Notes under the pieces: model-generated
What the model was told of the DNA's origin: nothing
Databases searched by the model: none
The model's input: only the letters and a program-made list of their open reading frames with translations
Assembly (NCBI GenBank): GCA_013388605.1
Contig: JACAEY010000011.1
Location: forward strand, 1 to 34,915
Reading direction: 5' to 3'
Source: Nitrospirota bacterium
GTDB lineage: Bacteria > Nitrospirota > Thermodesulfovibrionia > Thermodesulfovibrionales > SM23-35
Length of the DNA: 34,915 nucleotides
Translations under genes and position numbers: made by a program
Shown: positions 7,657 through 15,351 of the stretch, piece after piece
Layout: every line of letters begins with the position of its first letter
How positions within the stretch are numbered: position 1 is the first letter of the stretch

Positions 7657-8349
7657 ATGCTCTCAAGACTCCTAAATCTATTATATCCTTCTAAATGCCC
7701 ATCCTGTAAAGGTTTATCTGATGTCTTCTCTCATTCACCAATCTGTTCATCCTGTTGGTCAAAAATAACAAAATATACTGGGCCTTCATGCAAGATATGT
7801 GCAAAACCATTTATATCTATGTATGCAGAAATATGCTCAGAATGTCTCAAAAAAGCGCCTCCTTTTTCTAAGGTTATCAATTACGGTCTTTATGAGGGAG
7901 TTCTTGTAGATGCAATCAACCATTTAAAATTTAATGGACTTAAAAGACTTGTTAAACCTCTTAGTAGATTATTGCTAAACTTTGATTTCCAAGGTATGGA
8001 TGGTGTAGTGCCTGTACCTTTAAGTAAGAAAAGACTGATAGAAAGGGGTTTCAATCAATCACTTCTTTTTGCACAAACCATATCGAAAGAAAAGAAACTA
8101 CCACTATTTATGGATATTTTACTCAAAGTAAAAGAAACAGCACCTCAAACATGTTTATCAGGTAAAGAAAGGCTGTCAAATCTCAAAAATGCATTCATTA
8201 TAAAGGGAAATATAAGAAACTTAAGGCTTCTTCTTGTTGATGATGTAATGACAACAGGGACAACAGTGTCAGAGTGCTCCAAACAGCTTATTAATGCTGG
8301 TGCAAAAGAGGTGGTTGTTCTTACTCTTGCAAGAGTGAGGATGGTTTGA
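7657..8349 (+). CDS. ComF-family phosphoribosyltransferase-like protein
   Basis: A 230-residue protein with two halves. Residues 14-63 hold eight cysteines in four CxxC pairs (C14/C17, C30/C33, C45/C48, C60/C63), a double-zinc-finger module. The C-terminal half is a type I phosphoribosyltransferase fold with the PRPP loop LLLVDDVMTTGTT near 190-203. ComF proteins assist uptake of single-stranded DNA in competent bacteria, but in most lineages (GntX group) the role is uncertain. It lies 22 bases after purA; no Shine-Dalgarno sequence is visible before the ATG. No other competence gene is in the window. Confidence 0.88.
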   Translation: MLSRLLNLLYPSKCPSCKGLSDVFSHSPICSSCWSKITKYTGPSCKICAKPFISMYAEICSECLKKAPPFSKVINYGLYEGVLVDAINHLKFNGLKRLVKPLSRLLLNFDFQGMDGVVPVPLSKKRLIERGFNQSLLFAQTISKEKKLPLFMDILLKVKETAPQTCLSGKERLSNLKNAFIIKGNIRNLRLLLVDDVMTTGTTVSECSKQLINAGAKEVVVLTLARVRMV

Positions 8350-8549
8350 TGTATCCAAGCATAAGACTAATCTGGTTCTATAGGTAACAATTTAAGGTAA
8401 ATCCTTCTAAAGATTATAACTCCTCGTTACACATTTTCAATTTATATTTTTCTAAATATTTCAAAGATTTAAGTATTTTGGCAAATAATTTGCTTAAGAA
8501 ATTCTTAGGTAGTTCCTTAAAGATTTTCCAGAAATTTCGGGTTTATATT

Positions 8550-9014
8550 ATGCAAAGAATAGTAGAAAAAGTTGAAAGAAGACATCTCCCTGATAGGCGT
8601 AAAAGTCCGACCCTATTAATTAGCAGATATACATTTATTGGTGGCAGAAGAAAAACAATAAGAAGATACTCAGACAGGAAAAAATATATTTTTGTTGATA
8701 TCTATAGTCCTCAATTATTGCTGATGCTTCTTTTTTTACTTATTCTTAATATAAGTGACGGTTATTTAACCCTCATATTGATCAGAGAAAATATTGCAGT
8801 TGAAGTTAACCCTATTATGTCCTTTTATTTAGAATTAGGAAATATATCATTTTTGACTGCAAAATTATTCTTTACAATATTACCACTATTTACATTCTGC
8901 ATTTGTAAAAATTTCTCTATCACAAAGGCATCTTTGTCAACTGTTATGATAATTTATATTTCTCTAATACTGTATGAGTTAAATCTAATTTTTAAATTTC
9001 TTCCTCCATTCTAA
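8550..9014 (+). CDS. DUF5658 family membrane protein
   Basis: A small protein with a basic cytoplasmic N-terminus (ERRHLPDRRKSPT, then SRYTFIGGRRKTIRR) followed by about three hydrophobic segments. The motif with an acidic residue in helix 1 (NISDGYLT), ExNPIM after it, and a later F..K in helix 2 fits the DUF5658 family, whose function is unknown. I give the ATG at 8550 (154 residues). An in-frame TTG at 8478 would add 24 residues; neither has a clear ribosome-binding site. It stands alone between comF and the PHP gene, with AT-rich gaps on both sides and no terminator that I could see. Confidence 0.7.
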   Translation: MQRIVEKVERRHLPDRRKSPTLLISRYTFIGGRRKTIRRYSDRKKYIFVDIYSPQLLLMLLFLLILNISDGYLTLILIRENIAVEVNPIMSFYLELGNISFLTAKLFFTILPLFTFCICKNFSITKASLSTVMIIYISLILYELNLIFKFLPPF

Positions 9015-9039
9015 TTCACTATTAATTCTAATAACCTTC

Positions 9040-9068
9040 TTGACAACATCTAGTGTCTTCAGTAAAAA
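9040..9068 (+). promoter_or_regulatory. Candidate promoter of the PHP-TPR gene pair
   Basis: TTGACA (9040-9045) is separated by 17 bases from TAAAAA (9063-9068), about 95 bases before the PHP gene. The -35 is a perfect match and the -10 matches at four of six positions. Confidence 0.4.
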
Positions 9069-9163
9069 CTTCATAATATTTAATGATGATTTTAAAAATA
9101 ATTTTTGTTAGAATTGTTAATCTTTAATTTTCTGATATATTATGTTTAAGAAAAGATAAATTA

Positions 9164-9820
9164 ATGATTGATCTACACACACACAGTCTCTTCAGTGATG
9201 GAGAACTCCTCCCATCCGAATTGATTAGAAGGGCTGAAATAATTGGTTATAAGGCCATAGCGATCACAGATCATGTAGATTCATCAAATATTGATTTTGT
9301 AATTCCAAGAATTGTGGATATTGTAAAAAAAATAAAGGGATTTGTTTCAATTGAGGTAATCCCTGGCGCTGAGATTACACATGTTTCTCCTGCCCTTATC
9401 TCCCAAATTGTTAAAGAAGCAAGACATTTAGGAGCAAAAATAGTAGTGGTCCACGGAGAAACTATTATAGAGCCTGTTGCAACAGGTACAAACAAAGCTG
9501 CTATAGAAGCAGATGCCGATATACTTGCCCATCCTGGTATTATCTCTATGGAAGATCTTCTTTTTGCAAAAGACAGGGGCGTTACACTCGAGATTACCTC
9601 GAGAAAGGGACATTGCCTATCAAATGGATACGTTGCAAAAGAGGCTATGAAATTCGGTGTTCCTTTATGCATAAATACAGATGCCCATAGCCCTTCAGAT
9701 TTAATAACAAAAGATATGGCTACAAAAATACTTCTTGCATCCGGAATTGATAAAAGTCGTATCGAACTGATATTTGAAAATTCAAAGTATATTATTGAAA
9801 AAATCCTTAGGAGAAATTAA
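9164..9820 (+). CDS. PHP-domain metal-dependent phosphoesterase (histidinol-phosphatase-like)
   Basis: A 218-residue protein of the PHP superfamily. Metal-ligand motifs are intact: DLHTHS (H5, H7), ITDHVD (D36, H37), a VVVHGET segment, LAHPG in the middle and NTDAHSPSDL near the end. Such proteins hydrolyse phosphoesters with a trinuclear metal centre; known substrates range from histidinol phosphate to nucleotides, so the substrate cannot be named. No histidine-pathway gene is next to it. Its stop codon overlaps the start of the next gene (TAATG), so the two are translationally coupled. Confidence 0.85.
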   Translation: MIDLHTHSLFSDGELLPSELIRRAEIIGYKAIAITDHVDSSNIDFVIPRIVDIVKKIKGFVSIEVIPGAEITHVSPALISQIVKEARHLGAKIVVVHGETIIEPVATGTNKAAIEADADILAHPGIISMEDLLFAKDRGVTLEITSRKGHCLSNGYVAKEAMKFGVPLCINTDAHSPSDLITKDMATKILLASGIDKSRIELIFENSKYIIEKILRRN

Positions 9821-12772: not shown

Positions 12773-14654
<1,882 letters not shown>

Positions 14655-14655
14655 C

Positions 14656-15351
14656 ATTAAAAAGGTTAAAAAAATAACTGAGAAAAAAACTGTTAAGAAA
14701 CCCTCAAAAAAATATTCTAAGAAGACTGTCAAAAAAACTCCTAAGAAGCCCGTAACTAAAAAGAGAAAGGGAAGAGTCCTTAAAAAAGTCAGGACTGTCA
14801 AAAAGACTAAAAAAGTTAAAGCTCCGAAAAAAACTACTAAAGTCAAAAAAATTAGCAAAAAGGTCAGGGCTCCAAAAAAGGTTAGACCCCCAAAAAAGCT
14901 TAAGCCTGCTGAAGAGCAAAAGCCCCAAAAGCCAGCATCAAAAATCTCTATTTTCAAAAAAACTGAAGATGAAAGAGCTGCTATACTAAGATCAGCCCTT
15001 ATTAAAAAAAGAGAGGATATTGTAAAGGAGGCAAAGTCTGAAATATCCAGATATATTAAAGGTGAGACTAAACAACTTGTTGACACTGCCCTTGATGACG
15101 GAGACTGGTCAGTTATTGACTTATCAGAAGATATCAGTTTCCAGAAATTAAGCTCTCATAGGAAAACCCTCCTAAAAATTGATGAGGCATTGAGAAAACT
15201 TGATGAAGGAACATATGGAAAATGCGAGGAATGTGGCGAAGAGATAAATGAAGAAAGGCTGAAGGTTCTTCCTTTTGCAATATATTGCAGAGACTGCCAA
15301 GAGAAAATAGAGATTCTTGAGGAAATGGAGAAGAAAGAGAGAATAGAATAA
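14656..15351 (+). CDS. Lys-rich DksA/TraR-type zinc-finger protein, apparent ATT start
   Basis: A 231-codon frame with no ATG, GTG or TTG before codon 179. A perfect GGAGG (14645-14649) ends six bases before ATT at 14656, the likely start; the next in-frame stop upstream is TAA at 14641. Residues 1-95 are about half lysine with repeated KKV, KKT and PKK units, resembling histone H1-like tails. Residues 96-185 are probably helical. A C4 zinc finger, CxxC-17-CxxC (C190, C193, C211, C214, including YGKCEECGEEI), matches the DksA/TraR family, which binds the RNA polymerase secondary channel or related partners. It follows frr by one base. A role in transcription or nucleoid binding is inference. 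Confidence 0.85.
   Translation: MKKVKKITEKKTVKKPSKKYSKKTVKKTPKKPVTKKRKGRVLKKVRTVKKTKKVKAPKKTTKVKKISKKVRAPKKVRPPKKLKPAEEQKPQKPASKISIFKKTEDERAAILRSALIKKREDIVKEAKSEISRYIKGETKQLVDTALDDGDWSVIDLSEDISFQKLSSHRKTLLKIDEALRKLDEGTYGKCEECGEEINEERLKVLPFAIYCRDCQEKIEILEEMEKKERIE

Follow-up and report, generated by a model that had tools for sequence, protein, structure and literature searches.

A DksA-like zinc-finger gene behind frr with an apparent ATT start, and its possible place among putatively IF3-discriminated translation genes of the Thermodesulfovibrionales

To our knowledge, few bacterial genes besides infC use start codons that are rejected by IF3. In Streptomyces, sigR begins with GTC and is repressed by IF3, and the authors of that work remark that the genes repressed by IF3 have yet to be identified in full (PMC5472188). 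In Staphylococcus aureus, an AUA infC, an AUU cvfC1 and an AUA ccpN have been described, all with strong Shine-Dalgarno (SD) sequences and with about 10% of the output of AUG, in one case as much as 30% (PMC13009471). IF3 also counters both initiation at non-canonical starts and SD-less reinitiation (PMC2268962). Here we analyse a gene with an apparent ATT start located behind frr in a Nitrospirota bacterium (GCA_013388605.1, a MAG-like draft of 1.68 Mb in 156 contigs). Coordinates refer to the window, the whole 34,915-nt stretch of contig JACAEY010000011.1 that was analysed, on its forward strand; the window genome is designated G000 and its relatives belong to the Thermodesulfovibrionales.

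The gene order rpsB, tsf, pyrH, frr leads into the gene under study, hereafter the finger gene, and a convergent hemC lies downstream. The frr gene, encoding ribosome recycling factor (RRF), spans 14097-14654 on the plus strand (Pfam RRF, E=1.5e-70) and ends with a TAA at 14652-14654. Within its last codons is a GGAGG (14645-14649) that stops six bases short of an ATT at 14656-14658, one base past the frr stop; GGAGG or GGAAG is kept at the frr end of relatives. From this ATT, the inferred start codon, 231 codons run intact to a TAA at 15349-15351, in a frame that opens at 14644. No ATG, GTG or TTG occurs before codon 179; the first in frame is a TTG located 535 nt past the frr stop, which leaves 53 codons. 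The initial annotation had based its case for ATT initiation on this open frame, on the spacing of the SD and on the truncated product that a usual start would give, and the sequence agrees with it throughout. Judged by comparison, 14656-15351 is a real, selected gene, and it is more than a chance frame because it contains no stop where the other two plus frames contain 11 and 33. On the minus strand one frame across the gene has a single stop, and an antisense shadow ORF (14409-15086, minus strand, 225 aa, Phe/Leu-rich, GTG start) could be called in place of the finger gene. An Rfam scan of the window returned a tRNA as its sole match.

The gene encodes a C4 zinc-finger protein with the DksA fold and, at its N-terminus, a Lys-rich basic tail of variable length. 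Residues 1-95 (14656-14940) include 40 Lys, 5 Arg and 3 acidic residues (Asp plus Glu) and have a pI of 11.5; the remainder of the protein has a pI of 5.1. The tail is predicted to be disordered (pLDDT mostly 51-60 per block, maximum 70), and the AlphaFold model of the rest (14941-15348), for the most part confident, shows a coiled coil and finger like those of DksA. Earlier described as histone-like, this tail of about 95 residues bears out the description in its Lys richness; the likeness to histones is one of composition only, and some orthologues lack the tail and in others it far exceeds 100 residues. The finger, already recognised in the initial annotation as two CxxC pairs separated by 17 residues, matches Pfam zf-dskA_traR (PF01258; E=1.1e-15, 57.8 bits against a cut-off of 24.9), which places it in that superfamily; in the orthologue alignment C190, C193 and C211 are invariant and C214 is conserved in at least 90%. 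Foldseek retrieved DksA2 (4ijj), Escherichia coli DksA (1tjl) and 5vsw with probability 1.00 and E values of 4e-5 to 3e-4, in keeping with a DksA-like coiled-coil fold. Because it scores below the DksA equivalog cut-offs (TIGR02420, 59.8 versus 115.5 bits; NF033459, 73 versus 105 bits), the protein belongs to a DksA-like paralogue family and is not DksA proper. At the coil tip D147 and D150 are invariant and line up with D71 and D74 of DksA, and Ser152 replaces A76, in a gapless alignment to E. coli DksA anchored on the first Cys. Together, the predicted fold and the tip acids suggest that the finger protein may act on RNA polymerase as DksA does.

A match was found in 61 of 61 searched genomes, and the orthologue is directly downstream of frr in nearly all of them. 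By the measure of substitutions its core is under purifying selection: between G000 and G010 dN is 0.14 and dS 1.74, with synonymous sites near saturation. Most relatives carry a conserved small ORF, about 50 residues long, between frr and the finger gene, which then starts with ATG some 140-240 nt after frr. This ATG lies upstream of the Lys-rich tail and takes it in where the tail is present; the orthologues show no start farther downstream that would leave out the Lys region, a finding that the initial annotation had held would speak against its reading. The small ORF, seen for example in L006, L005 and L014, encodes the pattern NSNFxLKVxDAKLxDIQKALxxAGIKVRSIIEVxKE and matches no Pfam family above cut-off. 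In G000, G010 and G012 the small ORF is absent and the finger gene itself starts with ATT (G000 and G010) or ATA (G012). Both G000 and G010 read GGAGG-TTTAA(C/G)-ATT, that is GGAGG-N6-ATT, so that the ATT and its SD, whose conservation the initial annotation had left to comparison, recur in a second genome. G012 reads GGAGG-TGTAAG-ATA, identical to the start of the small ORF in its sister G008. The small ORF likewise lacks a usual start in G014 (ATA), G008 (ATA) and G004 (ATT). In a tree built from PyrH, Frr and the core of the finger protein, G000 pairs with G010 (73%) and G012 with G008 (98%), and for this reason we conclude that the family has lost the small ORF on two or more occasions and that the finger gene then came to use the start site behind frr. 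An ATT or ATA opens the ORF next to frr, whichever ORF stands there, in 6 of the 18 family loci and in none of about 40 from outside the family (Fisher p ~5e-4, shared ancestry ignored); as a control, the start of frr was canonical in 56 of 56 loci. A search of 177 genomes for an ATH pattern yielded no further loci without a nearby usual start, and the matches outside the family were ruled out as having ATG, GTG or TTG nearby or as off-target. The position of the start at ATT is thus well supported on comparative grounds: no ATG, GTG or TTG is found at the conserved N-terminus, an ATN stands at SD distance, and the start is conserved as ATT in G000 and G010 and as ATA in G012.

Is the finger gene alone in this respect? 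We took a census of 708 kb, about 42% of one genome, for ORFs whose first ATG, GTG or TTG falls far into the frame, and discarded frames that do not code, genes that are broken and those that have a normal start deeper in the frame. The genes that could be recognised among the remainder were the finger gene, infC, thrS, valS, hflX and rsfS, the last five each identified by NCBIfam above an equivalog cut-off; all five are translation genes, a bias that was judged after the genes were seen. In the genomes read infC starts with ATA. A second IF3 gene with an apparent ATA start was seen in three family members (G009:C51, G014:C100 and G012:C56). Across the order hflX starts with ATA in 24 genomes, ATT in 2 and ATC in 2, that is in 28 of 30, usually 6 nt downstream of GGAGG and in most cases without any in-frame usual start; the G000 copy (L262:1362-3011) reads GGAGG-N6-ATA. 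A TATAAT-like box was noticed just upstream of several hflX copies, that of G000 included. A literature search for AUA starts in hflX found no paper. For thrS, ATT, ATA or ATC near GGAGG is the start in 15 of 17 family genomes (G000 copy, L245:3241-4989, minus strand, GGAGG-N6-ATT). The thrS product of this family is short, about 583 residues, with its N-terminus immediately ahead of the conserved HSTSH motif; in several other families the frame extends farther upstream. An ATT that overlaps the stop of the upstream gene is kept at valS in 15 family genomes, an overlap that itself also constrains the sequence; the alternative start is GTC (G000 copy, ATT or GTC at L157:10106), no usual start exists anywhere in the family, and other families have ATG, GTG or TTG. 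The apparent start of rsfS is TTA in 22 of 30 genomes (G000 copy, L251:856-1209, minus strand), and the others have ATG (G028), TTG (G021), ATA, GTA or CTA at that position. The E. coli K-12 copies of hflX and rsfS begin with TTG, likewise a weak codon. Separately, an ORF for a K+ channel (L260, minus strand, frame 8241-9255 in reverse coordinates) lacks a usual start in its first 32 codons and might begin with CTG.

The finger gene is part of a set of translation genes of the order with ATA, ATT, ATC or TTA starts. A census of the 708 kb by SD only, with all codons as control, showed no excess of ATT, because SDs in this genome are often weak; the claim of a wider set therefore rests on N-termini defined by homology. 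ATT as a common start genome-wide was rejected, since nearly all long ORFs have an early usual start, and so was a relaxed initiator tRNA, whose GGG/CCC anticodon stem is intact. The analogy to infC drawn in the initial annotation is strengthened by the local ATA infC and by the non-canonical starts of hflX, rsfS, thrS and valS in this lineage; it had noted neither the effect of the position behind frr nor the larger group of genes.

Several other explanations have to be weighed against a regulated AUU start. It is extremely unlikely that the assembly conceals a true ATG or that the gene is decaying or unexpressed. The genome is indeed in 156 contigs, yet an independent assembly, that of G010 from a sister genus, repeats GGAGG-N6-ATT, which makes the error improbable and leaves no sign of the correction to ATG that had been envisaged at the outset; decay is at odds with the purifying selection on the core and with a frame that no stop has entered. 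We also regard as very improbable that the zinc-finger part is made as a fusion to Frr by a +1 frameshift at GTT TAA. The prfB frameshift site is CTT TGA C, and the +1 frame that is open across the frr stop from 14644 superficially resembles it. However, the frame relation is not kept, as in G004 the ORF that follows frr occupies the other frame and in further relatives the two overlap as TAATG; in addition GGAGG overlaps the putative slip codon, and re-pairing from GTT to TTT would be poor.

A more substantial alternative, which we still consider unlikely, accepts the ATT start and denies it regulatory meaning: the weak start would have been inherited from the lost small ORF, with coupling to frr and the strong SD providing enough protein. 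The alternation of ATG, GTG, ATA and ATT among relatives at the site behind frr fits this account, and so does the GGAGGTGTAAG-ATA that G008, which has the small ORF, and G012, which has lost it, have in common, as if the start had been inherited by deletion. Nevertheless, ATT has been kept in G000 and G010 even though ATG is one change away, and weak starts recur in ribosome genes that are not likewise coupled to an upstream stop, such as hflX. We consider it probable that the weak AUU start of the finger gene is one of several IF3-discriminated starts that couple a number of ribosome factors to the level of IF3.

What would be the consequences of an IF3-discriminated start behind frr? Control by IF3 is inferred by analogy with the systems above. 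Ribosomes that finish frr, or that enter at GGAGG, would initiate inefficiently at AUU with the initiator tRNA, and rejection of AUU by IF3 would hold the finger protein at a low level. A shortage of IF3 relative to ribosomes would raise the finger protein in step with IF3, HflX and RsfS. IF3, HflX and RsfS all act on the association of ribosomal subunits, and a shared dependence on IF3 would for this reason form a homeostatic group. In the step we hold least firmly, the finger protein would probably use the secondary channel to enter RNA polymerase, in the manner of DksA, and lower stable-RNA transcription, the basic tail perhaps adding affinity for nucleic acids. In E. coli, depletion of RRF left translational coupling unchanged (PMC7538156), hence the site at the end of frr need not sense recycling. 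Sensing of RRF by reinitiation was rejected, as the same E. coli data speak against a strong effect of RRF on coupling, even though IF3 inhibits reinitiation (PMC7538156; PMC2268962).

More tentatively, we envisage an IF3-controlled start-codon regulon of the Thermodesulfovibrionales comprising IF3, HflX (ATA) and RsfS (TTA), which split ribosomes or counter their association, and ThrRS and ValRS, joined in one family by the gene that follows frr. All of these starts would be rejected by IF3, so that one factor might set a group of ribosome-state genes; we see this as a serious possibility without favouring it. If it holds, rsfS would be a case in which UUA serves naturally as a start and has been conserved. 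From comparison alone, a conserved set emerges in this order, most of which is uncultured, with a bias towards genes for ribosome anti-association and tRNA charging. Such genes, the essential valS and thrS among them, will be missed or truncated by gene finders that accept only ATG, GTG and TTG.

How does this locus relate to the systems described so far? With cvfC1 and ccpN of S. aureus it has in common an AUU or AUA start after a strong SD, and cvfC1 is also a possible zinc-finger protein, a likeness by description; the S. aureus genes are not behind frr, and their starts were shown by initiation-trapped profiling. Like sigR, the finger gene would encode a transcription regulator from a non-canonical start with a strong ribosome-binding site, a use conserved within its clade. 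In contrast, sigR uses GTC and encodes an actinobacterial sigma factor, and its response to IF3 was established by experiment where that of the finger gene is deduced. As with the AUU, AUA or AUC start of infC, a non-AUG ATN follows a strong SD, and infC of the same genome starts with ATA; the finger gene differs in encoding a zinc-finger protein of transcription type behind frr. Since its product is not IF3, any effect of IF3 would be control of a target, not the self-control exerted in infC. Finally, the product shares with the DksA/TraR C4 zinc-finger proteins the PF01258 finger, the coiled coil, the DksA fold and the two tip aspartates, and departs from DksA in its sub-equivalog score, the Ser in place of the tip Ala76, the long basic tail and the linkage to frr.
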